Of a stretch of 64,000 bases of DNA, positions 18,026 to 61,656 are shown piece by piece. Origin of the DNA: a virus; IMG/VR virus record IMGVR_UViG_3300028883_000044, positions 16,793 to 80,792 of that record. One strand, given 5' to 3'. Position 1 is the stretch's first letter; every line of letters begins with the position of its first letter. The position numbers and the translations under genes were made by a program. The notes below the pieces were generated by a model that was given only the letters and a program-made list of their open reading frames with translations, was not told where the DNA came from and did not search any database.

Positions 18026-18026
18026 T

Positions 18027-18617: not shown

Positions 18618-18626
18618 CCTCTCCTC

Positions 18627-19240: not shown

Positions 19241-20208
19241 GCTGTTAACCTAAAAACATGATCCCTACTAGAGCGAACTAATTTAAATCCTTCATGTGCT
19301 TCTAAATTTTTTACTGGTTTATTTTCTATATTCTTTTTAAAATTATTTTCTAAGTATGTTATAAAGTCTAAACCGCATTGAATACTAAATGTACTTCCAC
19401 CACCAAATCTAGAATTTATTTCTATAAGATAAGGCTTATTATCTTTAACAATAAATTGAAAATTGCAAGGACCGGTTACACCAAAAGTTTCTCCTACTAT
19501 TTTAGTAAGATAAATAAGTTGTGGATTATGTACTGATTTACTTATAATAACTTCACCATAACCAATTCTATCTCTAGTCCTTACAACACAGTCTATAAAC
19601 TTTTTAGAAATACAATCAAAGTAAGCATCTACAGAATATTCTTCTCCGTCTACATACTTTTGAAATACATAACCATTTTTTTTCACAGTTTCATATTCTG
19701 AATATGTAAGCTTTTTTATCCCTAAAGAGGAATGACCATTAATAGGTTTCTTTATAACTTTCTCACCACTCTCAACCGAAGGGTAAATATAATCAAAATT
19801 TTCTTTCATAGCTTGTTCAAAAACTAATTTGTCATAAGACATTTCAGCCACAGTAAAAGTTTTAATAGGAAATTTACTTAACATATATTCATCATTAAAA
19901 AACTCCAAACTGTATAACCAACTAGCACTATCCATCAAAGGCACAACTAAATCAATATTATTGTTATCTACTAGAAAGCGTATGGTTGAATTAAACTTTA
20001 TACTATTTTTAAATTCAAATTCAATTCCTTGATACATTACAATAGAATTTCTAGGTAGTTTCATTAGTGGGGAAAATCTAGGTTCTAATTCAGTAGCGTA
20101 GATTCTCCAACCATTAACAATAAAATGTAAAGCTAATTCATATCTCCTACCACCACCTAAAAATAAAACTGATTTATTTAAATCTATAAGGTCATCTTTT
20201 TTAAACAT
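19237..20208 (-). CDS. ATP-grasp ligase (carbamoyl-phosphate-synthase-like)
   Basis: 323 residues with a Rossmann-like N-terminus (VLFLGGGRRYELALHF), the ATP-grasp lysine strands (KVIKKPINGHSSLG) and the Mg-binding end FIVKDNKPYLIEINSRFGGG with E-x-N. The enzyme would couple a carboxylate to an amine or similar nucleophile with ATP. Such genes in glycan loci often attach amino acids or carbamoyl groups to sugars. It is the most upstream gene of the glycan locus. The substrate cannot be told. Confidence 0.8.
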   Translation of the reverse strand: MFKKDDLIDLNKSVLFLGGGRRYELALHFIVNGWRIYATELEPRFSPLMKLPRNSIVMYQGIEFEFKNSIKFNSTIRFLVDNNNIDLVVPLMDSASWLYSLEFFNDEYMLSKFPIKTFTVAEMSYDKLVFEQAMKENFDYIYPSVESGEKVIKKPINGHSSLGIKKLTYSEYETVKKNGYVFQKYVDGEEYSVDAYFDCISKKFIDCVVRTRDRIGYGEVIISKSVHNPQLIYLTKIVGETFGVTGPCNFQFIVKDNKPYLIEINSRFGGGSTFSIQCGLDFITYLENNFKKNIENKPVKNLEAHEGFKLVRSSRDHVFRLTA

Positions 20209-43392: not shown

Positions 43393-43429
43393 TGGGAAGA
43401 AGATTAAAAACCTTCTTCCCATTTTTTTA
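43393..43429. terminator. Bidirectional intrinsic terminator
   Basis: TGGGAAGAAG pairs with CTTCTTCCCA; T7 follows on the plus strand and CAGTTTTTTT on the minus strand, so it can stop transcription from both convergent operons. Confidence 0.85.
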
Positions 43430-43460
43430 TACTAAGAAATTATTTAGTTTTAATTTTTAA

Positions 43461-43997
43461 TTAACGTAAACCATTTATTTCTAAGTCTCTAAAATCATTT
43501 TCTCTTTGAACTTCTTCCCTATTATGTGGTAAATTTACTTCTACTGCTTCTAGAAAAGGTAGTCCATTATCTTCTGGTAAAATAAAATCCTGAAAATGTT
43601 TTTCAGGAAGTTTAAAAGGTTTTTGTTTAAATCTCATATGATTAGAATTTAGAATAATTATATCTTTAGAAAATTTCAGTTTTACTTTTTGCATACTAAT
43701 ACAATACTTTTTAAAATTAGCTTCTCCATAATTTTCTCTTATATCTATTTTGTATTCCTGTATTACAGTATTTATAATTAACTTTATTATTTGAAGTATT
43801 TGATAATCTCTTTCTGAGAATATATTCCTATCATCTTGTAATTTATTAATAATTAAGTATAATGATTTAAATCTAGCATAAGAAAGTACGCTAAATAATA
43901 TTATAAAAGTATCATCACTTAAATCGTATAGTATACTTTTAGTTCTATAAAGTTTAAATATTATATCTATTAAAAACTCTATATCTTCGGTTTCCAT
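43461..43997 (-). CDS. Hypothetical protein, last gene of the leftward block
   Basis: 178 residues, N-terminal two thirds helical with hydrophobic patches, C-terminus acidic and polar. It overlaps the next gene by one base. Not recognised. It may belong to the amidoligase operon by position only. Confidence 0.6.
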   Translation of the reverse strand: METEDIEFLIDIIFKLYRTKSILYDLSDDTFIILFSVLSYARFKSLYLIINKLQDDRNIFSERDYQILQIIKLIINTVIQEYKIDIRENYGEANFKKYCISMQKVKLKFSKDIIILNSNHMRFKQKPFKLPEKHFQDFILPEDNGLPFLEAVEVNLPHNREEVQRENDFRDLEINGLR

Positions 43998-44794
43998 TAT
44001 AGTAATAATCCATCTATTAATAAACTTTGTTTAAAATGTCCATGTATAAAATAATCATCATTTTTATAAGCATATATAAAAGATTTTAATTTAGATTCTA
44101 TCAATTCTGTATCTCCAAAAGATTTAATAATAGATTTCGTTAGATTTTTATTGTATATATTATGCGTAGCATTACTAACATTATTTAAAATAAGACTATC
44201 TAAATAATAATCAATGGTTTTATTTTCATTAATTAAAATATTAGTTGTGTAAAAAGCTCTATTTAAAACTAGTAGGAAATAGTATTGAACTAGTTTATTA
44301 AAAAAACTTGCTTTTTTAGTAAACATTAATCTTACAAAATTAAATCTATGTGTATACATATGTAATGAAGAAATTGATGAATATTCAGGTAATAAATAAT
44401 AACATTTTCTTCCATAAATTGTATTTATTTTTGTTTCACATAAAGTTGTATAAACTATATCAGGGAAAATATAATTACAAAGTTTTTCAAATTCTAATGA
44501 ATTACCCTTAGAAAGAAAATATAAATATATATCTTCTACATTTTCTTTTTTATATAGGTTAGTAGCATCTTCTCTAAAACCTCCTAAACAAACTTCACTA
44601 CAAGGACTGTCTACATAAAGTTTAAATTCTTCTAATGTTATTCCTGTATTGGGAACATTTTTTATAAACTTACATAAATCCTCTATTTCAGAATTATTAT
44701 AAATATCTGAAAGACGATAATTAATATAATCCGTCATAACTATGGTAATAGGTTTAGTAATTTCTTTTTTACTACCTGTTTGTAATAATTTCAT
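43997..44794 (-). CDS. Hypothetical protein beside the amidotransferase
   Basis: 265 residues, Tyr/Asn/Ile-rich and low in charged catalytic motifs. It contains three Cys (PCSEVC around residue 66) and a long hydrophobic stretch VQYYFLLVLNRAF that may be a buried helix. Overlaps the amidotransferase end. Function unknown; could be a substrate-binding part of the amidoligase system. Confidence 0.6.
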   Translation of the reverse strand: MKLLQTGSKKEITKPITIVMTDYINYRLSDIYNNSEIEDLCKFIKNVPNTGITLEEFKLYVDSPCSEVCLGGFREDATNLYKKENVEDIYLYFLSKGNSLEFEKLCNYIFPDIVYTTLCETKINTIYGRKCYYLLPEYSSISSLHMYTHRFNFVRLMFTKKASFFNKLVQYYFLLVLNRAFYTTNILINENKTIDYYLDSLILNNVSNATHNIYNKNLTKSIIKSFGDTELIESKLKSFIYAYKNDDYFIHGHFKQSLLIDGLLL

Positions 44795-45446
44795 TTAGTT
44801 TCCCTTGTATAAATCTTATAAAGATTTTAGCAAACTTTTTATTACTATCTCTATATTCTAAATTATTTTGCATAAACTCTGGGTGAAATTGTGTAGTAAA
44901 TATTTTACTATTTTTTCCAAAGGACATTTCTGAAAAACCTCCGAAATAAGCTACCGTAAGTAACTCTTTCGCAGAATATTTAACAGCTTGATGATGTAAT
45001 GAATTAACTCTATCTAATTTTAAATTTTCATTTATATTAATATCTTTTGGATAATATAGTAAATGCTTACTAGGATGATTTTCTATATCCACATTTAACT
45101 TTCCGCCTAAAGAAGCATGTATAAGTTGATGACCTCTACAAATTCCAAAGATAAGTTTATTATATTTTAATGCAAGATATAAATTCTTTAAATCTATTGA
45201 GTCTCTTATAGTATTATAATGACCATTTTTTAGTGTATAATCTCCATGAATTGTTGGTGAAATATCTTCACCACCAGATAATACTAAAAGATCAATATTA
45301 TCTTTAAATTCTTCTTTATCAAAATTAGTATCTAATAAAGTAGAAGTAACAGGTATTCTAAATTCTTGATAAATAATATTTTCAATAAGTTTTTTAATTT
45401 CTCCATAAAAAGAAAGGGTTGAAAAACCTATACAAAGTTTATCCAT
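44772..45446 (-). CDS. Class I glutamine amidotransferase-like (C26)
   Basis: About 224 residues from ATG 45446 (overlapping the amidoligase stop, ATGGATAA). VLSGGEDISP, GICRGHQ with the nucleophile Cys103, and FHPEF with His188/Glu190 complete the catalytic triad. The pattern matches peptidase C26/gamma-glutamyl hydrolase-type members, so it may hydrolyse a gamma-glutamyl bond or release ammonia. It adjoins the COOH-NH2 ligase gene. An upstream start would add 15 residues. Confidence 0.8.
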   Translation of the reverse strand: MDKLCIGFSTLSFYGEIKKLIENIIYQEFRIPVTSTLLDTNFDKEEFKDNIDLLVLSGGEDISPTIHGDYTLKNGHYNTIRDSIDLKNLYLALKYNKLIFGICRGHQLIHASLGGKLNVDIENHPSKHLLYYPKDININENLKLDRVNSLHHQAVKYSAKELLTVAYFGGFSEMSFGKNSKIFTTQFHPEFMQNNLEYRDSNKKFAKIFIRFIQGKLNEIITNR

Positions 45447-46371
45447 AAGTAACTGTATCATAAACCTTTCGCATAATACTTGCAGAATCATCTACCCTTA
45501 CTTCTAAAATATTTTTAATAGACGATTCTAAATAAGTTTCAATTAAAGGTCCAGAAAATTTTTCTAAATTATCTATTACCTTAAGTAAAAGACTTGTTGC
45601 TGTAAACATTTTTCCTATTTTTCCTAAATCTTTTATCCATAAGTTTGATGGAGTTCTATATTCAATACCTTTTATATTATCTTTTTTAGAATAAGTTTGA
45701 ATACGAAGTTTTCCGGGCAATCCATAAAATTCATGCCTATCTTTTTCTAAATAAACTTCCTCTTCAGTTTCCAAAGAAGATATAAAAGCATTTCCTAAAA
45801 TAATATCCATTAATCTTCCTATTTCAAAATATCTGTCAGTATCTATATTAGATATATGTATATGTCCCCCACCAAATCTTTTATTAATATTACTTGCATC
45901 AACTTCTTTAGAATAAAGTCCGCTATAAATATCTAAATCAGGGTCACACCCAAATCTTACACAATAGTTTGCATAACTATCTAAAACACCATCTATGTAA
46001 AGAATTTCTGGATTAAAAATTACTGCAGGTTTTATGGTAATACTATACCCAAATTTTCTTACAAGATTTTCTAAATGACCTATTGCATTAGATATCATAC
46101 TATAATATTCTAAAGTATCCTTTGTAGGTTTTGTATTAATTTCAAATGCCGCTCCATCTTCAATAATTTTATATGAAGATGTTTCCGCAAAAACTGGGTG
46201 TTTTTCTCTATCAGATTCTATTGAAGATGTAGTTAGATTTTTATTTAAATGTTTTGTAGTAAAAGGCATTCCCAACTTTCTTAATATAACTGGTGGAATA
46301 CATTCTCCTAAACTATTTACACAAAAAACTTCTGGATCAGAGCCTATTAAACTTTTTCTATTTACTGACAT
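45439..46371 (-). CDS. Predicted COOH-NH2 ligase (phiEco32 type 2-like)
   Basis: 310 residues with GSDPEVF (residues 10-16), EDGAAFEIN (71-79), GGGHIHIS (167-174) and IEYRTPSNLW (about 233-242). These match the glutamine-synthetase-like fold called phage COOH-NH2 ligase, which forms amide bonds from carboxylates and amines using ATP. Substrate is not known for the family. It lies between the class I amidotransferase and a zinc ribbon protein. Confidence 0.8.
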   Translation of the reverse strand: MSVNRKSLIGSDPEVFCVNSLGECIPPVILRKLGMPFTTKHLNKNLTTSSIESDREKHPVFAETSSYKIIEDGAAFEINTKPTKDTLEYYSMISNAIGHLENLVRKFGYSITIKPAVIFNPEILYIDGVLDSYANYCVRFGCDPDLDIYSGLYSKEVDASNINKRFGGGHIHISNIDTDRYFEIGRLMDIILGNAFISSLETEEEVYLEKDRHEFYGLPGKLRIQTYSKKDNIKGIEYRTPSNLWIKDLGKIGKMFTATSLLLKVIDNLEKFSGPLIETYLESSIKNILEVRVDDSASIMRKVYDTVTYG

Positions 46372-46386
46372 ATTTTTTCTCCTATT

Positions 46387-46734
46387 TTATTCAACTAGTT
46401 TATTAAATTTATATGAAGTTACTTTTTTACCTTCAACTTCATATCTTTTTCTACACTTATCGCAAAAGATAGCATTTGAACTACTTATTTGAATATCTTC
46501 TAAAGAAAATAAATCACCACAACCTTCACATTTTATTAAAGCTTCTTTTTCTGAAAATGTTTTTCCACAATCTGGGCAATAAAAAATTAAATTTTTATTT
46601 TCAGAATTAGATTTAAAAATAATATCAATACATTTTAGACCATTTAATGTTAATTTAGGCGTTCCATAAAAATTAATAGATTCATTTAAATCAATTAGTG
46701 CAAAACTCTTTCTACATTCACTATGGTATATCAT
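46387..46734 (-). CDS. Zinc-ribbon protein in the amidoligase operon
   Basis: 115 residues with CPDC (about residue 52), CEGC (about 70) and CDKC (about 91), forming up to three zinc knuckles. SD GGAGAAAA. It may bind nucleic acid or scaffold the neighbouring enzymes. Not assigned to a family. Confidence 0.6.
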   Translation of the reverse strand: MIYHSECRKSFALIDLNESINFYGTPKLTLNGLKCIDIIFKSNSENKNLIFYCPDCGKTFSEKEALIKCEGCGDLFSLEDIQISSSNAIFCDKCRKRYEVEGKKVTSYKFNKLVE

Positions 46735-46747
46735 TTATAATTTTCTC

Positions 46748-47800
46748 CTATACAATTTCTACACTTGATATTTTAATATTATATCTATTTTCTATACCAC
46801 CAACTATTTCATCTACTGTCATAATATTATTCGTTAAAGATGTTTGATAAATTTCTAAAATAAGTTGTTTACTTTGTGCATATAAATTCTTTACAAAAAA
46901 ACCTAAATTCATATTATTATAACCTTTTATTTTATGAATATCTTTAACTTTACAGTTAGTATAATTAGTATAACTATTTAAAAAAGTTGTTAATAGTAAG
47001 TCTTTTTCACTTTTACTTACAGGAGTTATTATAGTAGGTATTGGAGGTTGTTCTTGAACATTTCTTCTATAAACAAATGTTTTAACTTTTTCAAAAGCTT
47101 TTTCTAATTGTAATTCTTGATAATTTCCAAAATTAGGATAATCAAGATATTTAAATAATCCCCTTATTGGAGATTGTATTACTAAATCTACCATATCTTT
47201 TATAAGAAGTTTTTCATGTGCATAAGCATAACCTATTAAAACTTCTTGCACAACAACTGCTGGATTTAATCCACTAGTTCCTGTAAAATTAAAATTATTT
47301 TTATAAGTATTATAAACTGCATAAAGAGTTTTTGCAGTTTGTCCAGAAATAAGCCCTAATCTAGAATCTATTGAAACTAATATTTTATCTTTATTATCTA
47401 TATGATTATAAATATAATTTTTATGGTTTTCATTATTTTCTAGTAAACTATATACATTAGAGTTAATTGTAGTAAACCATAATTCATTATCTTGATTATA
47501 ATAATATAAAAATACTCCCCCAGTTCGTATATTATAAAATACTTGTTTAATATCTACAGTTTGTTTATTCATAAATTTTTCTATAGCATATGTACCAGTA
47601 TTTATTTCAGAAGATAAGTAAGTTTTTGTAGTAAGTATTTCAAAAGTTTTTGTTGTAGGATTAGTTACATCAGCTTTGATAATATTATTTACTTTATCAA
47701 ATATTCTAAAATCTTTTGGACGTTCTATGAGACTAGTTTTAATTTCATCTTCTTCTAAATCTATTTTACCTAACTGTTTTACATAATTTTTATATTTCAT
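46748..47800 (-). CDS. Hypothetical protein between ligase and ATPase
   Basis: 350 residues, Tyr/Asn/Thr-rich, with beta strands in the first half (a possible binding domain) and helices in the second. A PVS-type loop follows a Pro-rich IPTIITP stretch (about residue 246). No catalytic motif is seen. It overlaps the RuvB-like gene, so they may act together. Confidence 0.6.
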   Translation of the reverse strand: MKYKNYVKQLGKIDLEEDEIKTSLIERPKDFRIFDKVNNIIKADVTNPTTKTFEILTTKTYLSSEINTGTYAIEKFMNKQTVDIKQVFYNIRTGGVFLYYYNQDNELWFTTINSNVYSLLENNENHKNYIYNHIDNKDKILVSIDSRLGLISGQTAKTLYAVYNTYKNNFNFTGTSGLNPAVVVQEVLIGYAYAHEKLLIKDMVDLVIQSPIRGLFKYLDYPNFGNYQELQLEKAFEKVKTFVYRRNVQEQPPIPTIITPVSKSEKDLLLTTFLNSYTNYTNCKVKDIHKIKGYNNMNLGFFVKNLYAQSKQLILEIYQTSLTNNIMTVDEIVGGIENRYNIKISSVEIV

Positions 47801-48545
47801 TTAAAATTCTTCCTTTTGAAGTTATTTGTATGAGATTGTTTCGTAATAAAAATGGTTCGATATAATTTTCAATAGTATTAGTAGGAACTCCTAAATATTT
47901 TGAGAGAGTTTTCAATGAAACAGCTTTATTATTTTCTAGTAATTCTAAATATTTATAATCTACATCAGTAAATCCATCTCTATATACACCAAAAGTATTT
48001 AAAACATCTATTGTAAAATCTAATGAAGGGTGTTTACCAGAATTCCTATAATAAACTTTTAATCTTTCTATGAGAGTTTTTACTACTCTAGGAACTCCTC
48101 TACTTCTATTAACAATTTCTTCTAAAATCTTATCATCATTAATTTTCAAAAAATGTTTAGCCATATTTTTTAAATCTTTTTCAGTATATTCTTCTATATA
48201 AAGAGACATACATCTATTAACAAGAGGTTCAGGCAAATCTCCGATTTCTGTTGTTAGTAGAAAGATTGTATATAATCTTTTATCCATTATATGATATAAA
48301 GTTTCTGGAGTTCTCATTAAATGTGCTTCATCTATAATCATTACAGAAGAAGTTTTAATAGGTTTATCTCCAAGAATCACTACATAATCTTTATTAGCTA
48401 ATTCTGCAGTATAAATTGCAAAAGTAGTTTTACCATAACCTGACCTACCTTGTAATAATATATTATGGTTAATATTCTTTGAAATATCCTGTGAAATATA
48501 ATACAATTCTGTTTTTAGTTTTTCTTGTCCAAATAATTTTACCAT
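47790..48545 (-). CDS. RuvB-like AAA+ ATPase
   Basis: 251 residues with Walker A GRSGYGKT (33-40), Walker B MIIDEAH (69-75), a sensor segment LLTTEIG and an arginine-finger-like RGVPR. C-terminal winged-helix-like part (about residues 190-251). The order matches clamp-loader/RuvB relatives. In predicted phage amidoligase neighbourhoods such an ATPase is a known partner. Its job may be remodelling of a DNA or protein target. Confidence 0.8.
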   Translation of the reverse strand: MVKLFGQEKLKTELYYISQDISKNINHNILLQGRSGYGKTTFAIYTAELANKDYVVILGDKPIKTSSVMIIDEAHLMRTPETLYHIMDKRLYTIFLLTTEIGDLPEPLVNRCMSLYIEEYTEKDLKNMAKHFLKINDDKILEEIVNRSRGVPRVVKTLIERLKVYYRNSGKHPSLDFTIDVLNTFGVYRDGFTDVDYKYLELLENNKAVSLKTLSKYLGVPTNTIENYIEPFLLRNNLIQITSKGRILNEI

Positions 48546-49270
48546 TAAATTTGCAAGTTCCTTTCGAAAAAATCTTTATATAGAAGTAAAGTTTCACCAT
48601 TTAAAGAGGGTGCAGTATTAACTTCTATAACTTTATACCCATAATTCTTTATAAAACCCATATCAACTCCCATAAATCTTAACGGTAAAACTTCGTAAAT
48701 CTTATCTACTAAGTTTATTGCTTTAGGAAATGCCTCAATATTTTTTCGTTTAAATGTATAATTATTTTTAGAATTTCTTATAGGATAAGTTTCTTCACTT
48801 TCTGAACCATCTTCTGGCATAAAAACTTTCTTAAAAACTTTCACAACTTTTCCATCAAGAACATGTACACGAATTTCGAATTTAAAATCGTAAAAATATG
48901 AATAATAATTATACCTATATTGATTAAATTCTTCTTCATTAGTTACTATTTTAATACCCTTTCCACATGAACTTCTAGTAAGTGTTCGTATAAAAACTGG
49001 ATAAGATTCTGGTAAAATATTTTTATATAATGTAACATTAGGAACTCCAGAAATTTCCATTAATTCTGAAAAGGAAACTTTAGAAGAAGCTTTTATAATT
49101 AAATTTTTATCATTTAATTCAGTATCCTGTAAATAATCTCCATTAGTATTTCCCCAACGAATTGCTGGAGAAATTATTTTAGGTTGTAAATAACAATTCA
49201 TATTTAATAAATTTGCTAATCTTCTTGCAGTAATAATACCACTCTTACTTGTTAAGATATACTTTTGCAT
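48545..49270 (-). CDS. ATP-grasp ligase of the amidoligase block
   Basis: 241 residues with an N-terminal preATP-grasp-like part, FIRTLTRSSCGKGIKI (ATP-binding), FKFEIRVHVLDGKVV and YKVIEVNTAPSLNG (E-x-N Mg site). It can join a carboxyl to an amine. It is distinct from the ATP-grasp in the glycan locus. It overlaps the class II amidotransferase by 19 bases. Confidence 0.8.
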   Translation of the reverse strand: MQKYILTSKSGIITARRLANLLNMNCYLQPKIISPAIRWGNTNGDYLQDTELNDKNLIIKASSKVSFSELMEISGVPNVTLYKNILPESYPVFIRTLTRSSCGKGIKIVTNEEEFNQYRYNYYSYFYDFKFEIRVHVLDGKVVKVFKKVFMPEDGSESEETYPIRNSKNNYTFKRKNIEAFPKAINLVDKIYEVLPLRFMGVDMGFIKNYGYKVIEVNTAPSLNGETLLLYKDFFERNLQI

Positions 49271-50379
49271 ATATTCTCCAAAGTTTCTTCACTATTTAAC
49301 ATGAATGGAAATTCCAAATTGTTTTCTTTATAAATATCTGATATTTTATTTTCACCTACTTTTTCTAAAATACTTTTCCAAGCTACTTTTTTACGATCTG
49401 TATTACCATCTATCATATTTTTTACTTCACTTTTAACAGTAATTGAAGAAATATTATTTAAATTTAATAGATTAATTTCTTGAGGAGTTTTTGTATTTTT
49501 AGATGCTATAAGTAATGCTATCATTACTTCTGGATAAGATAATCCACTTTCATATAATATATTTCCCAAACCTCTTTCATAGCTATTTATAGTAGATTCT
49601 GAATAAGTTACTCTAGCATATTCCTTTTTAGTTTCTTCTAAAGTATCTATTTTTATTAAATCTCCATCTTTAATTGTGAATATAGAATTTTCTTCCAAAC
49701 TATCTACTTTGTATTCTAAATTAATTATGCTGTTATTTCCCATTAAAAATAATTTAGATAAATCTAAAGTAGTAACTAAATCATCTTTTTCTGTATTAAT
49801 CATTAGATAATTTAATTTTTTTCCATCTTTAAATTCTATTGTAATTATTGCTTTGAATAAAGTTGCAGTTTTTCCTCTAGCAAAATATACTTTATTATCT
49901 TTTTTAGAGAAAATTCCAAAAGCAAATTTCCCATCATATATTTCATAAGTTTTCTTTAAAGCCTCTTCCATTGAGAGGTTATTAAGATTATTAGATAAGT
50001 TTTCTGCAAAATCTTCTGAATCAGTTTTTCCAGTAATAGTTGTTCCGTCTTTCTTTGTAAGAGTTCCATTATGAACAAGTATCAAATTATCTTTATCAAA
50101 AGGATGTGCATTTTCATCAGTAATAGTTGTTTTTAAAACGCTTGCTAATCTTGTATGTAATAAAATACTATAAGATTTATAAGTTAAATTTTGTAAAAAA
50201 GGTAAATAACTTTTAGAAGTAGTAGCTTTTTCTTTATCTTTATATAAACTTCCATCAGTTATATTATAAAAACCCCAACCATCTTTATTTTTAACACTAT
50301 TACTAAGCATCTGAAAATTAATTAATGTATTAACTACTGAAGATTTATTTTTACCTGAGATGTAAGTTATTTGGCACAT
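49252..50379 (-). CDS. Class II glutamine amidotransferase (Ntn hydrolase)
   Basis: 375 residues, ATG followed by Cys2, the N-terminal nucleophile after Met removal. Signature: DGWGFY (33-38), HTRLA (75-79), LVHNGT (101-106). The last 120 residues are helical and hold no known synthetase domain. It would release ammonia from glutamine for transfer or act on gamma-glutamyl conjugates. SD weak. Confidence 0.85.
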   Translation of the reverse strand: MCQITYISGKNKSSVVNTLINFQMLSNSVKNKDGWGFYNITDGSLYKDKEKATTSKSYLPFLQNLTYKSYSILLHTRLASVLKTTITDENAHPFDKDNLILVHNGTLTKKDGTTITGKTDSEDFAENLSNNLNNLSMEEALKKTYEIYDGKFAFGIFSKKDNKVYFARGKTATLFKAIITIEFKDGKKLNYLMINTEKDDLVTTLDLSKLFLMGNNSIINLEYKVDSLEENSIFTIKDGDLIKIDTLEETKKEYARVTYSESTINSYERGLGNILYESGLSYPEVMIALLIASKNTKTPQEINLLNLNNISSITVKSEVKNMIDGNTDRKKVAWKSILEKVGENKISDIYKENNLEFPFMLNSEETLENICKSIS

Positions 50380-51502
50380 TTTCTATACTAAATTCTCCTC
50401 TATTATGTATATCAATATAGTTAGGTTCTTTAACTAAAATACCTTCAGTTAAACTTTTAGGTTCATAATCTCCATTAAAATATCTTGAATCTGGATTTTT
50501 AAGTTGCATATGGGAGATTACATATTCTTTTTCTATAACAGGATATTCTGAATAATCAAACAAATCTAATATTCTAGAAACTAAAGTAGGAAACTTTGTT
50601 TCATACTCATCTAAAATGTATTCTAAAATCTCTCTAGAATTATAAAGAGGATTATAAACAGAGTTTATAGCGGAAAAACCTAAGTTTTTTAGTTCGCTAT
50701 AACTTGTCGATAACATTTTATCTGTAGTTGCTTGACACAAAAGTATTATAGCTCTTATGTCTAAATCATTTAGAGTTTGATTAAAAACTCTATATTCCAA
50801 TGTTCCATATTTATTTAATGAATAAAGATTTAACCAGTGGTATCTTACAGGATGATATTTCGTTCCTGTGAATTTAATATCACCATATCTTTCGAAAAAA
50901 TCATCTAAAGTTTCTGATAATATTAAATCAAATGTATTAAATATCTGAGCTTTCTTACCTGAACGAGTTTTAATAACTGATGGACCATAAAGTGTTAAAG
51001 GTCTACAATAAGTAAAGTCATTATAAATTCCTCTATGATAATCTTGTAAAGAACCTATTCTATAAAATATAGATTCAACTCTAGTAGCCCATCTTATAAT
51101 TGATTTTAAATTCTTTAAATTAATATTCTTTCCAATATTAATATGAATATGAACCGAACTTCTTTTATTATCTATATAAGATTCTACACTAGATAATATT
51201 TTACAAACTTTCTCTAAATTATCTATAAAATGTTTAGAAGTTGGATTACTAGGTTGAGAAATAATTTCTCCACCAAAAGTATTATAAGAAAACTTATCAT
51301 AAATAGGTGAATTAAAATTTAAATTAATATCTGAATAAAAGTTCTTTTGTGAGAAAGAAGTTTTCTTTGTTTCTACACTAGCATCTCTAACTATATTCCA
51401 ATTATTATTTTGAATATCTTGTTTAATTTTATTTGTTAATAAAGTATTTTGAAGTTCTATTTCAACTCCTACAGTATCTATTGCAGGATAATCTAAATTC
51501 AT
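50351..51502 (-). CDS. Amidoligase_2-like enzyme
   Basis: 383 residues with VGVEIEL (11-17), GGEIISQP (77-84), SSVHIHIN (115-122), and YGTLEYRVFN (about 237-246): the four blocks of the putative amidoligase family related to glutamine synthetase. Overlaps the amidotransferase by 29 bases. It is a second ligase beside that at 45.4 kb, of a different subfamily. Substrate unknown. It is the most upstream enzyme of the block. Confidence 0.8.
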   Translation of the reverse strand: MNLDYPAIDTVGVEIELQNTLLTNKIKQDIQNNNWNIVRDASVETKKTSFSQKNFYSDINLNFNSPIYDKFSYNTFGGEIISQPSNPTSKHFIDNLEKVCKILSSVESYIDNKRSSVHIHINIGKNINLKNLKSIIRWATRVESIFYRIGSLQDYHRGIYNDFTYCRPLTLYGPSVIKTRSGKKAQIFNTFDLILSETLDDFFERYGDIKFTGTKYHPVRYHWLNLYSLNKYGTLEYRVFNQTLNDLDIRAIILLCQATTDKMLSTSYSELKNLGFSAINSVYNPLYNSREILEYILDEYETKFPTLVSRILDLFDYSEYPVIEKEYVISHMQLKNPDSRYFNGDYEPKSLTEGILVKEPNYIDIHNRGEFSIENVPNNLHLR

Positions 51503-51505
51503 TTT

Positions 51506-51757
51506 TTATTTACCTTCCGCTAAACGCAATCTTGAATTAAAAGCTTCGGAAACTTCTCCTATACTTTTTGGTATAACATATACCAATTTATTATTATTTG
51601 ATTTGGTTATAATAACTGATGTATAAGAACCATGATAATCTTTTATATTAACCATCTTACCTAATAAAGCAACAGTAACCATAAAATCTAATATTTTATC
51701 AAATGTAATAGAATCTCTAGAAAAAGCATCTGTTAATTCTTTTTTGAAGCATTCCAT
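51506..51757 (-). CDS. Small hypothetical protein
   Basis: 83 residues with a beta-hairpin-like middle (YTSVIITKSNNNKLVYVIP) and helical ends. ATG after GAGAGAG. It is adjacent to the amidoligase gene. Not recognised. Confidence 0.55.
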   Translation of the reverse strand: MECFKKELTDAFSRDSITFDKILDFMVTVALLGKMVNIKDYHGSYTSVIITKSNNNKLVYVIPKSIGEVSEAFNSRLRLAEGK

Positions 51758-52353
51758 AAAGGACTCTCTCTAATTTCTTCCATATCTTTTGTGGGAAAAA
51801 ATCCCAAACATTGTTTATTAAAAGCATCGAATTCTTTATTAGAAACTCTATCTGCTATTTTTAAATCTTTTTTCCATAAAACATAACTAAAACCTGACCT
51901 ATAATTTAAACCAAAATCTATTTTATCAAATTTTGCAAGCGATAAGAAAATTTTTATATCTTCTTGAAAATCTGCTGTTATATAATATATTACAGAATAA
52001 TTATAAGCTGTTACAATATTTTCTATTAAAGTTATTACTTTAGGTTCTTTCCATGCTCTTACTATACAACCTCCTAAATCAGTTAAAAGACAATTACCAC
52101 AATGACTTTCAAAAGTAGTTAATCTAAAATCTAAATAATTATAACTATAATCATTAATTACTACACTTAAAGAATTATCTTTTATTCCAGTTAATACTCT
52201 TATCCTATTAAAGTTAACTTCTTTTTTTCTTTCTGTTATTAAATTATAAATAAAAATTTTACAATAGTTTTCTAAATAATGTTTTACTTCATCACTTTTA
52301 AGATAATCTTTAAATTTATAGTATCCACCATTCATAATAGAGTTTCTATCCAT
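51733..52353 (-). CDS. Hypothetical protein of the small-gene run
   Basis: 206 residues, alpha/beta, Tyr/Asn/Lys-rich. A beta core (NSLSVVINDYSYNYLDFRL), then CGNCLLTDLGGC, a cysteine-containing loop that could bind metal. Overlaps its neighbours. No family recognised. Confidence 0.6.
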   Translation of the reverse strand: MDRNSIMNGGYYKFKDYLKSDEVKHYLENYCKIFIYNLITERKKEVNFNRIRVLTGIKDNSLSVVINDYSYNYLDFRLTTFESHCGNCLLTDLGGCIVRAWKEPKVITLIENIVTAYNYSVIYYITADFQEDIKIFLSLAKFDKIDFGLNYRSGFSYVLWKKDLKIADRVSNKEFDAFNKQCLGFFPTKDMEEIRESPLWNASKKN

Positions 52354-53165
52354 AAGTTTTTATAAAAATCCTTTCCATATTTTTCTGATATTGTTTCGTT
52401 AAATTGCTCTATATACTTATTCAAATATTTGGATTTATAATTAATACTAATATAAACTTCATCTTTAACTGTCATAACATTTTGTAAATAATTATATAAA
52501 AACATATTACCTTTACTATCTATATAACTTTCTTCGGTTTTTTCTAGTGTAGAACTTCTAGGCAAGTAAAAACATTTAAAATATTTAGAAAGTTTTTCTT
52601 TAATTATAGGATATAAATCTAAAGGAACTATATAAATGAATTGTGTAAACTTTAATGCAGAAATAAGTTTTCCAAAATATATATATAAAAGTTTTAAAAT
52701 TTCACTTCTTTGTTCGGTATTTATTTTACTATTTTTATAGAAATTTGTTTTAAGATAAACTGTTCCACAAACTGTGGGAAAAAGTGATACAACTACTGTA
52801 AATAATTTTTTATCAGTATCTTTAGAAAAAATTGTAATATCAAGTCTAGTATAACTTGAATACCTTTCCCTTGTAAGAGAAGTTTTAATAGGTTCGACAA
52901 TAATATTTTCAATATAGTTTGTTAAATTTTTATCAAAAAGTGCTTTAAAATCAATTTTAAATTGAGATTTTAAATCTCTATTTAGCTGACTTTGTAAAAA
53001 ATTTTCTTTTAAATTGTATTTTTCAAAAACTTTATTAAAATCTTCTATAATATCTTTAATAGAATCATAATCAGATATTTTCCATCTTTTTGTTGTAAAA
53101 TTAAAACTACTCTCATTAATTAAGTATTCAAAATCTTTTTCTAATTTTTTAACTAGATTGTCCAT
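52332..53165 (-). CDS. Hypothetical protein of the small-gene run
   Basis: 277 residues, with a helical N-terminus and a core of alternating beta strands (RLDITIFS, LFTVVVSLF, FIYIVPLDLYP). The strand-helix-strand pattern is shared with its neighbours, and it is the longest of the run. Function unknown. Confidence 0.6.
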   Translation of the reverse strand: MDNLVKKLEKDFEYLINESSFNFTTKRWKISDYDSIKDIIEDFNKVFEKYNLKENFLQSQLNRDLKSQFKIDFKALFDKNLTNYIENIIVEPIKTSLTRERYSSYTRLDITIFSKDTDKKLFTVVVSLFPTVCGTVYLKTNFYKNSKINTEQRSEILKLLYIYFGKLISALKFTQFIYIVPLDLYPIIKEKLSKYFKCFYLPRSSTLEKTEESYIDSKGNMFLYNYLQNVMTVKDEVYISINYKSKYLNKYIEQFNETISEKYGKDFYKNLWIETLL

Positions 53166-53628
53166 AGAAATCTTCCCATAATTTTTTATTTAGAATATAG
53201 TATCTTAATATTTGTGAGCCTCTTACAGTATTACTATAAACAAAAGGTTTAAGTATTTTAAATCCACTATTTATTAAATAATAATCTCTAGTACAAATAC
53301 CAGCATTTACTATATATAGAAGATTATCAATATCATATTTTGTATGAACATTATAAAATAATTTATTAATACCTATTTTAAAATAATTATATTTATCTTC
53401 ATTAGTAATTATATTTGAACTATATTGTTTAACATAAACATTTAAATTTGCTAAAAATAAGGTTTTCCCTAAAAAATCCATAAATTTACTTTTACTAAAT
53501 AAAATATCTAATTCTCTAAACTTTATATATACATCTTTTGTAACAGGTGTATAAGAAGTTGATGCACGAGTTATGGTAAATTCTTCATCACCATATACAC
53601 AGTAAAATTTAAAACTATTTTGTAACAT
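53149..53628 (-). CDS. Hypothetical protein of the small-gene run
   Basis: 159 residues, beta-helix-beta pattern with FKFYCVYGDEEFTITRA at the start and a Tyr-rich C-terminus. SD only moderate. Overlaps the next gene. Confidence 0.55.
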   Translation of the reverse strand: MLQNSFKFYCVYGDEEFTITRASTSYTPVTKDVYIKFRELDILFSKSKFMDFLGKTLFLANLNVYVKQYSSNIITNEDKYNYFKIGINKLFYNVHTKYDIDNLLYIVNAGICTRDYYLINSGFKILKPFVYSNTVRGSQILRYYILNKKLWEDFYGQSS

Positions 53629-53839
53629 TTTCTTCCTCTAATCTTTTAAAAATATATGGATAAGTTATATTATCACATTCTCCATAAAAATTGTATTGAA
53701 TAAAATTTTTATAATTCTCAACCTTTGTTTTAGTATTTAAACCATAAAGTTCTCTAACTTCTTGAGAAATTTCTTTTATAGATTTTTCAACCCTTCTTAC
53801 ATTATTTTTATTGTAAGTTATTGTAGTTAATAATTTCAT
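53615..53839 (-). CDS. Small hypothetical protein
   Basis: 74 residues, basic start (TYNKNNVRRVEKSIKEI) then acidic, helical. Overlaps both neighbours (ATGA-type junctions). Not recognised. Confidence 0.55.
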   Translation of the reverse strand: MKLLTTITYNKNNVRRVEKSIKEISQEVRELYGLNTKTKVENYKNFIQYNFYGECDNITYPYIFKRLEEENVTK

Positions 53840-54201
53840 TCTAGTATCCTTTCCATTATATCTTCCAGTAGATTTTCTAAAATCATCTCTGGAAAAAAAT
53901 CTTCTTCTTCTTCAATTAAAGGTTTTATAATATCATCTGATTGTAAAGTATACATAAGAGTACGTTCGGATATTTTTTTAACAGATACTGTTTTAAGTAA
54001 ATACCCGTAAGACTCTAGAAAATTTTCTTCTATAGCTTGTTGAAAATCTAATTTAAAAAACTCATTTAAAAAATCTTCAATTAAATATTCTGAAAAATCT
54101 ATCTTTACATAGATAGTAGAATTCCCAATAATAGTAAAATCTTCTTCTATAGAATAAGAGAAGTTAGTATTAATATTTATTGAATCTATAAAAGTATTCA
54201 T
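53836..54201 (-). CDS. Small alpha/beta protein, candidate paralogue family
   Basis: 121 residues with a strand (NSTIYVKIDFS), a helix (IEDFLNEFFKLDF), a second helix, then LLKTVSVKKIS and a final strand. The same order of elements is seen in the proteins at 54198, 56313 and 56624. Very acidic C-terminus. Function unknown. Confidence 0.6.
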   Translation of the reverse strand: MNTFIDSININTNFSYSIEEDFTIIGNSTIYVKIDFSEYLIEDFLNEFFKLDFQQAIEENFLESYGYLLKTVSVKKISERTLMYTLQSDDIIKPLIEEEEDFFPEMILENLLEDIMERILE

Positions 54202-54668
54202 TTCATTTCAGTTAAATTTAATAAATATTTTCCTTCCAGTTTATTTTTATTAATAAATCTCTCTAATCTTACTTTATATTCTTCCCCATAATATGATATA
54301 ACATTTCCAAAAAGATTATTATAACCTTGATGATTAAAAACTTCAAATTTAACTGTTCCAGAAACTAGAAAATTAACTCTAGTAGTATTAATAGAATTAA
54401 TTTCTTCATTCTTTTCAGAATCTTTTATTTGAATATTTTTAATACAGCATTCTAAAGATAAATCATTTAATATATTTTCAGTGACTTTCTCACCAAAATC
54501 ATTTAGAAACTTTTTAGAAACTTGCTCTCTTATATAAGTTGGTATTAATGTAGAAAATTTAATTGTAATATTAAATACTAATGAGGTATTTTTTAACAAA
54601 GTATTGTGTCTTATATTGAAAGTATTTTCTGTATAAATTCCGATATTATCTACACTATTAATTAACAT
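54198..54668 (-). CDS. Small alpha/beta protein, candidate paralogue family
   Basis: 156 residues: strand LVFNITIKFS, helix TYIREQVSKKFLNDFGEKV, strand CCIKNIQIKD, then VNFLVSGTVKFEVF. This is the clearest case of the strand-helix-strand-strand layout of the run. SD GGAGAAAAA before the ATG. Confidence 0.6.
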   Translation of the reverse strand: MLINSVDNIGIYTENTFNIRHNTLLKNTSLVFNITIKFSTLIPTYIREQVSKKFLNDFGEKVTENILNDLSLECCIKNIQIKDSEKNEEINSINTTRVNFLVSGTVKFEVFNHQGYNNLFGNVISYYGEEYKVRLERFINKNKLEGKYLLNLTEMK

Positions 54669-55062
54669 AATTTTTCTCCTGTTTATTTAGCAAGGTTATT
54701 GCCGATAACATATTATTTAACATTCTTGAAACTTCTTCTAATACAATAGTTAATATACAATTTTTGCCTTCATTTTCTAATAAAAATGTAAAAGAATAAC
54801 AAAAACTATATTTTAAAAAATCTTCTACTATAAAATCTGAACCATATCTAATAATATCATCACATCTTTGTTTAATAAGTTGCTTATATGAATCTCTAGC
54901 ATTTTCTGTAAATAAATTAAAATCAGGAAAGACCGAAAAGATTTCATTTTTATTTACTTCAACCACTACTACATAATTATTTTTTTTAGGTTCATATATA
55001 GAAACTGAATGATTTAATATATATTTTCTTTTAACTAAATTGGTATCAAAAAACTTTTCCAT
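54658..55062 (-). CDS. Hypothetical protein of the small-gene run
   Basis: 134 residues, starting with a strand pair (YILNHSVSIYEP, NYVVVVEVN), followed by long helices and two Cys. It shares composition and layout with the others of the run. Overlaps the next gene. Confidence 0.55.
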   Translation of the reverse strand: MEKFFDTNLVKRKYILNHSVSIYEPKKNNYVVVVEVNKNEIFSVFPDFNLFTENARDSYKQLIKQRCDDIIRYGSDFIVEDFLKYSFCYSFTFLLENEGKNCILTIVLEEVSRMLNNMLSAITLLNKQEKNYVN

Positions 55063-55065
55063 ATT

Positions 55066-55584
55066 TTATCCTTTAAAAGCTAATGAAGTTGATATAACTA
55101 AAGATGTTTTAAAGTATTCTGAATAAGTTTTTAAATCTTTTTTTAGATTATATTCAATACATTTTGGTAAAGAATCAAGTGTATCTACTCCTAAAATTTT
55201 ATCGTATAAAAAACTTCCATATAAAACTCCTCCATTTCTTTTAGGTAAAACTGTACTAACTTCATCTAAACAAGTTATTCCAAAAACATCTTCAGTATAA
55301 TTCTTATTAGTTAATCTATCATAAACTAGAGAATTATATTTATTTAAATCACTTACAACAATAGTTTTAATACCATCTGAAATAATTTTTCTGAGTTTAA
55401 CTGGAAAAAAGTCTAAAAATTTTTCCATAAAAAATATATCAACTTTTGCTGTAAAAAATCCTTTAATATAATAATAATTAGTATAATTTTTACTTTCTAA
55501 ACTACTTCCTAAACTAAAAGGTGGTGTATAAATTACTCCAGAAACATGTAAACAATTTACCTCATAATCTTCATGCAGTTTCAT
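55066..55584 (-). CDS. Hypothetical protein of the small-gene run
   Basis: 172 residues with a beta-rich N-terminus (YYYIKGFFTAKVDIFF), a helix, then a loop GVLYGSFLYD. Weak SD (AGGATAAAATATGG type on the complement). No family recognised. Confidence 0.55.
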   Translation of the reverse strand: MKLHEDYEVNCLHVSGVIYTPPFSLGSSLESKNYTNYYYIKGFFTAKVDIFFMEKFLDFFPVKLRKIISDGIKTIVVSDLNKYNSLVYDRLTNKNYTEDVFGITCLDEVSTVLPKRNGGVLYGSFLYDKILGVDTLDSLPKCIEYNLKKDLKTYSEYFKTSLVISTSLAFKG

Positions 55585-55771
55585 CTATACCACTTATTAA
55601 TGAAAGAGTAGCTATCATTCTTTTAATATCTTTTTTAGTGAGATTAGTTATAGTAAAGCTATGCTCAGAATCTCCAGCAAATAATTCATAATCTTCTTTA
55701 TCAGTAGTTTTAATTTCGAGTTTAAATTTTTTCTCAGTAATAAGATTACCAACAATTTTTATGCAATTCAT
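55571..55771 (-). CDS. Small beta-type protein
   Basis: 66 residues: KIVGNLITEKKFKLEIKTT and HSFTITNLTKKDIKRM give three strands and a helix. It overlaps both neighbours. Not recognised. Confidence 0.55.
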   Translation of the reverse strand: MNCIKIVGNLITEKKFKLEIKTTDKEDYELFAGDSEHSFTITNLTKKDIKRMIATLSLISGIDETA

Positions 55772-56138
55772 TTTTTCTATCCTTTAATTCTAATAATTTT
55801 TCTAAAAAACCATATTGTATAGGAAACTCAATATATTCACTTTCTAATTCTTGTGTAATAGATACTACAGGAAGAATATCTTTACTAAGTTTTAGTAAAA
55901 GAATTTCGCAATTTCCTATTGCATTAATAAAATAACCAATATCATAATTTTTATTTTCAGAAATAATTTTAGTATAAGATTCTATTACATCTTCAAAAGC
56001 TTCTTTTGGTAAAAAAGCCTGCAAGATTTCTTCAGAATTTCTCTTTATATATAATCTATATAGAGTATCTGAGTTAAAAGAATTTAAATCTTTATCTATG
56101 TATAAAGTTTCTGAATCGTTCGTCAATAATTTTGTCAT
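55746..56138 (-). CDS. Hypothetical protein of the small-gene run
   Basis: 130 residues. The N-terminus is beta-like (LYIDKDLNSF, YRLYIKR), then acidic helices. It overlaps a small basic ORF upstream. Function unknown. Confidence 0.55.
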   Translation of the reverse strand: MTKLLTNDSETLYIDKDLNSFNSDTLYRLYIKRNSEEILQAFLPKEAFEDVIESYTKIISENKNYDIGYFINAIGNCEILLLKLSKDILPVVSITQELESEYIEFPIQYGFLEKLLELKDRKNELHKNCW

Positions 56139-56223
56139 TTATTTTCTTTTCCTTATTTTCTTTAATTTTTTCTTTACCTATATTAATGATATTCTTTAAT
56201 TTATAAAAAACTTTATTAAGCAT
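56092..56223 (-). CDS. Small basic helical protein
   Basis: 43 residues from ATG 56223, Lys/Ile/Asn-rich and helical, with AAAGGAAG upstream at a long spacing. It overlaps the start of the 130-residue gene in another frame, so confidence is limited. Confidence 0.4.
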   Translation of the reverse strand: MLNKVFYKLKNIINIGKEKIKENKEKKINDKIIDERFRNFIHR

Positions 56224-56297
56224 TCTTAAAAACTTCCTTTCTTATTAGATATATAAAAAGATATAAAATTAAACCTAGAATAATTACTCCAAACATT
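56217..56297 (-). CDS. Membrane microprotein
   Basis: 26 residues, a single hydrophobic helix (VIILGLILYLFIYLI) ended by RKEVFKNA. AAAGGAG in front of the ATG is a good ribosome site. Likely a real membrane peptide of unknown role. Confidence 0.5.
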
Positions 56298-56312
56298 TTA
56301 TTCTCCTTTATT

Positions 56313-56615
56313 TTAGTTTAGTTTATATTTAAAATTATGTGGTATCCATATTCTAAAAGTAACTATTAAAACTTTTTCATCAATTTCCTCCAATAGAATA
56401 TTTGAAATTTGCTTTACTTCTATATCAGTAACTTCATAAAGATAATTATAAGATGATTTGAAAAAAATCTCTAAAAACTGATTTATATCATTTTCTGTAA
56501 AATGTCTATTTCCAGTTAAACTAAAATTACTTTTATATGTAACTTCTATATTATTTTCATTGATAAAAGTTTTTAAACATTTTAAACTATCTTCTCGCAA
56601 GAGTATTTCATTCAT
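56313..56615 (-). CDS. Small alpha/beta protein, candidate paralogue family
   Basis: 100 residues: strand NFSLTGNRHF, helix INQFLEIFFKSSYNYLY, strand VTDIEVKQIS and final strand VLIVTFRIWIP. Fits the shared layout of the run. The start codon is ATG; SD is weak. Confidence 0.55.
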   Translation of the reverse strand: MNEILLREDSLKCLKTFINENNIEVTYKSNFSLTGNRHFTENDINQFLEIFFKSSYNYLYEVTDIEVKQISNILLEEIDEKVLIVTFRIWIPHNFKYKLN

Positions 56616-56623
56616 TGTATACT

Positions 56624-57055
56624 TTATTTTAAATCTTTCATTACATATTTTTTGGGAACTTCTATATTAAAATCTCTTCCAATATTATCTACTTTTCTTA
56701 GTAAAAAATCTTCTAATCTAAGTTTTATTTTAAAGATTTCTTTCAAAATTCCTTTCCCATAAAAATAATAATCGTATATTGGAACTTCTGCAATAACTGA
56801 TACTACAAAGTTACTTCTGTTAGTATAACATATTTTTACTTCTTTGACTTTATAAAAATAAGAATTTAATCGAGATTCTAAATAATCTTTTAGGAAAGTT
56901 TTAAACTCATTATTATCAACAATATCTTCAGAAGTTTTCCCTTCAAACATATTATTACAAGTAATTTCTACAGTATTTAATTCAGTTTCTAAACTAATAT
57001 TTTTAATAGTAACTTCGTTAAGTTTAAGTTCAACTATTTCCATTAGTTTCTCCAT
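56624..57055 (-). CDS. Small alpha/beta protein, candidate paralogue family
   Basis: 143 residues: strands VELKLNEVTIKN and TVEITCNNMF, helix FKTFLKDYLESRLNSYF, strands VKEVKICY and FVVSVIAEVPI. Shares the layout of 54198 and 56313. SD GGAGAAAC. Function unknown. Confidence 0.6.
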   Translation of the reverse strand: MEKLMEIVELKLNEVTIKNISLETELNTVEITCNNMFEGKTSEDIVDNNEFKTFLKDYLESRLNSYFYKVKEVKICYTNRSNFVVSVIAEVPIYDYYFYGKGILKEIFKIKLRLEDFLLRKVDNIGRDFNIEVPKKYVMKDLK

Positions 57056-57494
57056 TAAATATTTTTTTACAAATTTCTAAGTAGTCTTGAACGATTTTTT
57101 CGCAAGTATCTATACGATAAAGATACCTAGAATCTTGGTTATAAATATTACAATCAAAACATAATTTAACATTCATTATACAGTTGCTTTCCATATTTAA
57201 TGTACTAAAAGATACAAGATCAGTTATTAAAACTTTAGGATAATCACATTTATAATCAAAGTTTAAAAATTTTTTTCTTATTTCTTTATATAAAGTTACA
57301 TGAAGTAAGTTAGCTAAGTTCATTCTATCAGTAACATCTGGAAAAGGCTCAACCAAAGTTATTTTAGAAAGAACTGTTAAAAAGTAACTTCTATAAAGTA
57401 AGTCTTTTAAATTTTCTCTTATAAGAGAAGTTGGTACTAAAGTAAATGTATTAAATTTATTATATTCTTTAATGAAATCATTAGGGTATTTCAT
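57030..57494 (-). CDS. Hypothetical protein, early in the leftward transcript
   Basis: 154 residues with YPKVLITDLVSF, Cys-containing strands (NCIMNVKLCFDCNIY) and a helical end. SD GAAAGGAAA. It overlaps the next gene by 26 bases. No family recognised. Confidence 0.6.
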   Translation of the reverse strand: MKYPNDFIKEYNKFNTFTLVPTSLIRENLKDLLYRSYFLTVLSKITLVEPFPDVTDRMNLANLLHVTLYKEIRKKFLNFDYKCDYPKVLITDLVSFSTLNMESNCIMNVKLCFDCNIYNQDSRYLYRIDTCEKIVQDYLEICKKIFNGETNGNS

Positions 57495-57515
57495 TTTTAA
57501 TTTCCTTTCAAAACT

Positions 57516-60627: not shown

Positions 60628-61656
60628 ATGGCAAGAAGGAACTTAAAGCGGTATCAGACCGTAATTAAAGAAGGGGACATAAAGCTAGAGGGTGAACAGC
60701 TATTGTATGAAAGTTACAGTGCTAGCACACCAAATGGTAAGGACAAACGCTTGCAAGAGTTACTGAAAGAAAAGTACGGACAGGGTTCTGTTATAGGACC
60801 ACGCAGGGAAGTTGGCACTGGTTTTAAGCCACTAGTGTCAGAATTTCGTGCCTCCATATGGAGATGGTGCGAACTATTTCCAGAGGGCACACATGCAATA
60901 AGTATGAAAACTCTAATGGAAGGTAGGAACTTCAGTGAGTACAGGGATGAAGTTATACCTTTCATTCCGTTTGTACTGAAAGAGGGGGAGGAGTTAGAAC
61001 AAAGAGACCCCATCCATACAAGGATTTTGTGGACCATAGCATGTTTCTGGTATCACAAGGGAAACGGTCCTAAACCAGACGGTAGGCGTGCACCCAGAAA
61101 CAGGAAAAGCACTACTGATAATTGGATGGACACTCTAAAATGTCCTGTTTGTAATGTCATGTACACACTGACTAAACATGATAGGACAACAAAATCCAAG
61201 GAACAAATAATGTTGGACTACTCTACATGGTTAGCCAAACACAGTAAAACGTGCCAGTCCGAAAGAGAGTTCAGACAGAAAGTTTTAAGGCAAGCCAAAA
61301 AGAATCGTGAGTACAGAAAAGAGCAAGAGGACAAAAGAAATGCTATAGTCCAGCGGGATAAGGTATTAGCACGGAAGGCAGAGTTAGAACGGGGTATCAT
61401 AGAGAGGGACATAGAAATTCTAGCCTTACGACAAAAAGTGCAGGACACAGAACACTTTGAAACTCGTTTTGAGTCCCACATGAGGTATGCGGCTGAACAG
61501 TCGCAACTACAAGCAAAAATTCGTGCTAACATGGCAAAGAAGTTAGCACAAAAAAGAAAGGCTAACCCACCAGTTACCCTTGAGGACAAAGTAGAAAAAG
61601 CCTTACGAGATATGGTAGAGCACAACAAGCGTCGTTCAAAAAAGAAGAAGAAGTAG
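60628..61656 (+). CDS. Basic zinc-finger coiled-coil protein, candidate regulator
   Basis: 342 residues, strongly basic. The centre has CPVC (about residues 171-174), then His near 181 and a later H-x4-C (about 203-208), suggesting a C2HC zinc site. Residues about 212-290 are a charged coiled coil, and the end is a Lys/Arg run (RRSKKKKK). SD AAAGGAAGG. Such a make-up suits a nucleic-acid-binding oligomer, e.g. an origin or operator protein for the GTACGCAC sites; that is inference. No known family recognised. Confidence 0.7.
   Translation: MARRNLKRYQTVIKEGDIKLEGEQLLYESYSASTPNGKDKRLQELLKEKYGQGSVIGPRREVGTGFKPLVSEFRASIWRWCELFPEGTHAISMKTLMEGRNFSEYRDEVIPFIPFVLKEGEELEQRDPIHTRILWTIACFWYHKGNGPKPDGRRAPRNRKSTTDNWMDTLKCPVCNVMYTLTKHDRTTKSKEQIMLDYSTWLAKHSKTCQSEREFRQKVLRQAKKNREYRKEQEDKRNAIVQRDKVLARKAELERGIIERDIEILALRQKVQDTEHFETRFESHMRYAAEQSQLQAKIRANMAKKLAQKRKANPPVTLEDKVEKALRDMVEHNKRRSKKKKK

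Follow-up and report, generated by a model that had tools for sequence, protein, structure and literature searches.

The 64,000-nucleotide window analysed here (bases 16793-80792 of the 80,792-base IMG/VR virus record IMGVR_UViG_3300028883_000044) carries on its minus strand, read from 51502 to 44772, a string of eight genes that appears to encode a phage pathway for amide-bond formation. Genes were assigned by Pfam and PHROG profile matches. The string begins with Amidoligase_2 (AL2), a COOH-NH2 ligase of the GCS (glutamate-cysteine-ligase-like) fold (50351-51502, 383 aa; Pfam Amidoligase_2, 4.5e-14), and continues with a class-II glutamine amidotransferase (GAT-II) that has an N-terminal cysteine (49252-50379, 375 aa; GATase_6, 9.3e-7; phrog_4736, 1.2e-11), an ATP-grasp carboxylate-amine ligase (48545-49270, 241 aa; phrog_2599, 3.2e-22, with Pfam matches below the cut-off) and a RuvB-derived AAA+ ATPase (47790-48545, 251 aa; RuvB_C, 3.9e-18). 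Protein X, to which no function is assigned, occupies the slot adjoining the AAA+ gene (46748-47800, 350 aa), and is followed by a Zn-ribbon protein recognised by weak Zn-ribbon Pfam matches and invariant cysteines (46387-46734, 115 aa), a phiEco32-type COOH.NH2 ligase type 2 (CLIG; 45439-46371, 310 aa; phrog_3815, 1.4e-26; Pfam COOH-NH2_lig, 1.3e-4, below the cut-off) and a PuuD-like class-I glutaminase of the Peptidase_C26 or gamma-glutamyl hydrolase kind (GAT-I; 44772-45491; Peptidase_C26, 3.4e-23; GATase, 6.7e-12). Neighbouring genes mostly overlap by 1-53 nt, and gaps of 13-15 nt lie on either side of the Zn-ribbon gene. The longest overlap, 53 nt between GAT-I and CLIG, probably reflects an over-long GAT-I open reading frame (ORF), because an in-frame ATG at 45446, the likely start, fits the start sites of relatives and leaves an overlap of 8 nt. 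An earlier note on this DNA had described six catalytic genes in one overlapping string at 44772-51502, and the profile matches bear this out for a string that is mostly overlapping.

Judged by alignment with relatives, the catalytic residues of all six enzymes are intact. Both ligases keep the signature of the GCS-like superfamily, namely an acidic pair (E-x-E or D-x-E), an H-x-H motif and a C-terminal E-x-R: E14, E16, D40, S42, E79, H118, H120, N225, E236 and R238 of AL2 are invariant among 17 aligned phages, and D12, E14, D72, E77, H170, H172, R223, E237 and R239 of CLIG among 16. In GAT-II, the N-terminal cysteine (C2) and the glutamine-binding arginine, Asn-Gly and aspartate (R77, N104, G105 and D120) are invariant across 7 phages; the glutaminase domain alone was recognised, with no fused synthase domain (SIS, AsnB) found. 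The Cys-His-Glu triad of GAT-I (C118, H203 and E205) and its S-x-H-H-Q motif are invariant, and its nearest solved relative is Lin1909 (3fij). The metal-binding D203, E216 and N218 of the ATP-grasp enzyme are invariant, and no solved relative of this enzyme was found by sequence profile. The AAA+ protein retains the Walker A GxGKT, the Walker B DE, an arginine finger (R111) and sensor 2 (P152-R153) as invariant positions. The earlier note had held that loss of catalytic residues in several enzymes, or scattering of the genes in relatives, would tell against a joint pathway; no such loss was found in these alignments.

The five amide enzymes (AL2, GAT-II, ATP-grasp, CLIG and GAT-I) are, by family assignment, a known and widely annotated phiEco32-type phage module. 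This module was reportedly predicted from sequence in 2009, and a literature search found neither a biochemical test nor a product of it. It is widespread in phages: the ligase is matched by 299 deposited phage records (tblastn, E <= 0.01), annotated carriers of the amide enzymes include PA11, CW02, Bjorn, Salmonella phage 7-11, phiM6 and LUZ24/UFV-P2, and hosts range over Pseudomonas, Vibrio, Rhizobium and E. coli. Searches with single proteins gave no match for AL2 in viral contigs or for CLIG in genome contigs, so broader alignments were needed; a scan based on a CLIG alignment of 16 rows yielded 80 loci in viral contigs. Among 96 CLIG loci, in which the flanks stop at 10 kb or the contig end and the counts are therefore lower bounds, at least 93 have AL2, 92 GAT-II, 90 ATP-grasp, 75 a companion protein (COMP), 59 GAT-I and 46 GGCT, and at least 88 combine CLIG with AL2, GAT-II and ATP-grasp.

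All six enzymes are present in 12 divergent records from uncultured phages (the window, L002, L023, L024, L025, L104, L105, L109, L110, L111, L112 and L116), most of which have the order AL2, GAT-II, ATP-grasp, AAA+, X, Zn-ribbon, CLIG, GAT-I; the proteins are mostly about 25-38% identical to those of the window. In the CLIG tree these records group as a single clade supported at 100/100. AL2 adjoins GAT-II in 11 of the 12 loci (66 of 86 in the wider family), the AAA+ gene adjoins the ATP-grasp gene in nine of the 12 records, and CLIG adjoins GAT-I in seven of ten; a C26-type GAT-I is present somewhere on every record. L002 has the gene order of the window at 27-36% identity, its GAT-I gene lying immediately past the contig break of that record; the contig ends share sequence, so the record is probably circular. 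Another candidate relative, L008, was rejected as a clamp-loader-like protein without the module. When 17 records were searched for the RuvB C-terminal domain, only the window record and its closest relative had it, and 15 sister phages did not. AL2 of the window had no match among 50,697 deposited phage records, and AL2 of a relative had two weak ones, one of them in a gut phage whose displayed stretch has just an amidoligase and GGCT.

Scattering of the genes was thus looked for and not found, and the grouping of the six genes, on the evidence of these comparisons, is not due to chance, because the full set recurs in 12 divergent records and 88 of the 96 loci of the wider family hold four of its members. 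The operon has clearly been kept together by selection. The coherent amide-bond module of the earlier note therefore stands, on the strength of intact active sites and joint carriage in relatives. Its RuvB variant, defined by the CLIG clade, the loss of RuvA docking described below, X and the Zn-ribbon, may be new, and RuvB-like ATPases may perhaps already have been part of the 2009 prediction.

Phages of the phiEco32 type share with the window CLIG type 2, AL2, GAT-II and ATP-grasp, closely packed on one strand, and many have GAT-I, as the window does. As a rule COMP (phrog_11055/4877) sits between their CLIG and AL2 genes, and GGCT is frequent, whereas the window has neither and possesses instead the RuvB-like AAA+ protein, X and the Zn-ribbon, with a CLIG of separate clade. 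None of the RuvB-variant loci yielded COMP; there, as gene content indicates, X and the Zn-ribbon replace it. COMP is a protein of about 200 aa with a conserved R-x-x-x-R-Q-W-x-R-G motif; its predicted fold is confident (mean pLDDT 94.8), and its N-terminal part resembles an Hfq/Tudor-like small barrel at a Z below 6, which is not enough to assert a relationship. Mass spectrometry has detected three such proteins of SU10, a sister phage: the ATP-grasp enzyme, the glutaminase and GGCT (PMC4281155). Four phiEco32-like phages encode a homologous protein of 72-77 aa directly after GAT-II (L019:13964-14185, L020:11093-11311, L018:13666-13899 and L005:13114-13338; E 1e-8 to 1e-23), a small and conserved component of the sister module.

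The best PDB relatives of the AAA+ protein are RuvB proteins, with which it shares the AAA+ core, the arginine-finger and sensor-2 positions and the RuvB_C winged helix. Unlike bacterial RuvB, it is short (251 aa) and has about 20 fewer residues between Walker B and sensor 1, the stretch that in RuvB holds the beta-hairpin docking on RuvA. RuvA_N was absent from all 12 RuvB-variant records, some of which may be fragments. Because the docking stretch is lost and RuvA_N was not found in the 12 records, the AAA+ protein looks like a RuvB-derived motor put to another use, and on the same grounds is unlikely to act in ordinary branch migration. Short RuvB-like AAA+ proteins were also found in two further phage records, L107 (3880-4647) and L114 (10001-10774), in which CLIG and AL2 were not found by searches that both lacked a positive control. 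The AAA+ protein of L107 is without the hairpin stretch and is encoded near Zn-ribbon proteins and weakly Peptidase_M42-like proteins.

The slot of protein X is occupied by a protein of 286-388 aa in all 12 RuvB-variant loci, directly after the AAA+ gene in 11 and after CLIG in L104. The sequence in this slot evolves fast and is scarcely alignable, with similarity between only a few pairs, and a profile built from the other X proteins did not detect that of the window. The structure model of X is poor (mean pLDDT 42) except for the last 80 or so residues, and those gave only weak matches. Identity of X with COMP was rejected, profile comparison showing no similarity. In the Zn-ribbon protein, C7, C53, C56, C69, C72 and C91 are invariant among 5 relatives. 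A 265-aa protein overlapping GAT-I (43997-44794, minus strand) has no Pfam match and only non-significant PHROG matches; no homologue of it was found in the loci of relatives, and it probably lies outside the conserved module.

These results do not support the suggestion of the earlier note that the three proteins starting at 43997, 46387 and 46748 are targets or carriers of a tag: the first has no detectable relatives in other loci, the second is a Zn-ribbon with six invariant cysteines, and the third keeps its slot beside the AAA+ gene in 11 of 12 relatives with hardly any conservation of sequence. Conserved peptides ending in Gly or Lys, which might have served as a tag, were sought in the window string; it contains no small peptide gene, the smallest gene being that of the Zn-ribbon, and its proteins have no common Gly/Lys-ended or other C-terminal tail. 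Common acidic C-terminal tails do occur in four sister-module phages, each of which encodes 6-17 small SH3/KOW-looking proteins of unlike bodies ending in GDTEEDI (RHph_N3_19, L011/L192-L195), DQEPxEEETL (phiM6, L014/L196-L199), LLEENV (CW02, L003/L186-L188) or MENE (T2S1, L022/L200-L202). Synonymous codons vary within the tails of RHph_N3_19 and phiM6, which indicates that these are kept at the protein level; in CW02 and T2S1 a constraint imposed by ribosome-binding sites is an alternative reason. No such tails occur in 11 other module phages, in the window, in 92 IMG/VR module loci or in four of five controls; in the fifth control, HMO-2011, four ORFs end in GDLA. The tails were not used as evidence for a carrier peptide, being missing from the window and the 92 loci and, in CW02 and T2S1, open to this other reading.

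The leading interpretation, which we hold tentatively and short of calling it probable, is that the string uses glutamine to form amide bonds on a macromolecule, which the AAA+ protein, X and the Zn-ribbon would present. From what is known of their families, AL2, CLIG and the ATP-grasp enzyme would each use ATP to activate a carboxylate, which is then coupled to an amine. GAT-II may free ammonia from glutamine for AL2, its neighbour by gene adjacency, and GAT-I may either supply CLIG with ammonia or trim gamma-glutamyl bonds as PuuD does. A macromolecular acceptor is suggested because the motor has lost its DNA-junction partner; less certainly, the acceptor would most likely be a protein of the host or the phage, and the AAA+ protein without the hairpin, together with X and the Zn-ribbon, might be a remodelling and presenting subunit replacing COMP. 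The operon probably serves to take over the host at an early stage or to guard against competitors. A fuller proposal is that an AAA+ protein derived from RuvB but no longer bound to RuvA, acting with X and the Zn-ribbon, hands client proteins to an ATP-grasp ligase and to two GCS-fold ligases supplied by glutaminases, and that these three ligases amidate or lengthen carboxylates of the clients. Such peptide conjugation would differ from that of Pup or ubiquitin and need no separate carrier protein; we regard this proposal as unlikely. The tag envisaged by the earlier note, gamma-glutamyl or peptide-like and perhaps on an amine of a protein, a lipid or DNA, is an extrapolation from the enzyme families. 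Several observations weigh against macromolecular ligation. GAT-I appears closer to gamma-glutamyl hydrolases than to ammonia-channelling glutaminases, CLIG and GAT-I are usually not adjacent in phiEco32-type loci, and gene adjacency is in any case no proof of protein pairing. The hairpin-less AAA+ protein, to judge from L107 and L114, where it occurs without detected CLIG or AL2, is not tied to the ligases alone, and X is too divergent to be established as one family.

Bacterial peptidoglycan is amidated by glutaminases of both classes (GatD with MurT; AsnB/LtsA), and the presence of both in the string would fit a role in which the enzymes amidate or extend carboxylates of host peptidoglycan or surface polymers and so block superinfection. 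Cell-wall modification of this kind is the standing proposal for phiEco32, ascribed to Iyer et al. 2009 in passages of PMC10580990 and PMC11318856. It nevertheless seems rather unlikely here: no Mur-ligase, transport or lipid-carrier gene was found in the string by Pfam and PHROG matches, the module serves hosts as unlike as Pseudomonas, Vibrio, Rhizobium and E. coli, the AAA+ ATPase has no obvious role in it, and the literature search found no supporting experiment. Gamma-glutamyl chemistry, to which the GCS-like ligases and the C26 hydrolase-like GAT-I are suited, could alternatively yield a free product, either a gamma-glutamyl amide or a short non-ribosomal peptide, which GAT-I or GGCT would hydrolyse for recycling. 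GGCT in 46 of the 96 loci and in one RuvB-variant record is consistent with such a small-molecule pathway; however, GGACT was not found in 11 of the 12 RuvB-variant records, the window's included, and the AAA+ protein, X and the Zn-ribbon are left unexplained, so that we regard it as unlikely.

Two further explanations concern DNA. The AAA+ protein is a clear RuvB homologue with a RuvB C-terminal domain, and its hairpin-less forms occur in phage records without a detected module; it might thus be an unrelated recombination ATPase that merely shares an early operon with the amide enzymes. Its retention beside the same enzymes in 12 divergent records, next to ATP-grasp in nine, together with the absent RuvA_N and the lost docking stretch, makes such a passenger quite improbable. 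The addition of amino-acid or amide groups to phage nucleotides or DNA would accord with the position of the phiEco32-type module, which is often beside replication genes (primase/helicase and DNA polymerase in several sister phages), and with the ThyX and other nucleotide genes of the window phage. Yet no dedicated base-hypermodification gene was recognised among the selected window genes scanned, the whole record not having been scanned for such families, and we give this explanation very little credence.

Compared with known systems, the macromolecular ligation favoured here resembles pupylation and ubiquitin-like tagging, by analogy only, in that amide ligases would modify proteins; unlike Pup-like tagging, the window string is without a small carrier peptide. 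GAT-I shares the Cys-His-Glu triad and S-x-H-H-Q motif of PuuD and other Peptidase_C26 gamma-glutamyl hydrolases, from which it differs in being encoded alongside amide ligases. The RuvB variant narrows the question of the module's product and adds X and the Zn-ribbon as further candidate subunits, and because the eight-gene string is compact and could be expressed in a laboratory strain, that question is directly testable.

The minus-strand block at 43400-57500 that contains the string has a G+C content of about 0.21-0.25, against mostly 0.28-0.37 in other phage genes, and upstream of the module it holds a row of small AT-rich ORFs, the scanned one of which has no Pfam match. Between 58500 and 64000 the G+C content climbs to about 0.4 and coding density drops; the element GTACGCACA is repeated several times near 58.6-59.0 kb of the window, and the largest ORF of this region (60628-61656) has no Pfam or PHROG match. 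A second minus-strand cluster at 14598-20208, possibly devoted to sugar modification, includes a DegT-like aminotransferase recognised by eye, glycosyltransferase-like and methyltransferase genes, and another ATP-grasp gene (19237-20208; ATPgrasp_Ter, 6.2e-16).

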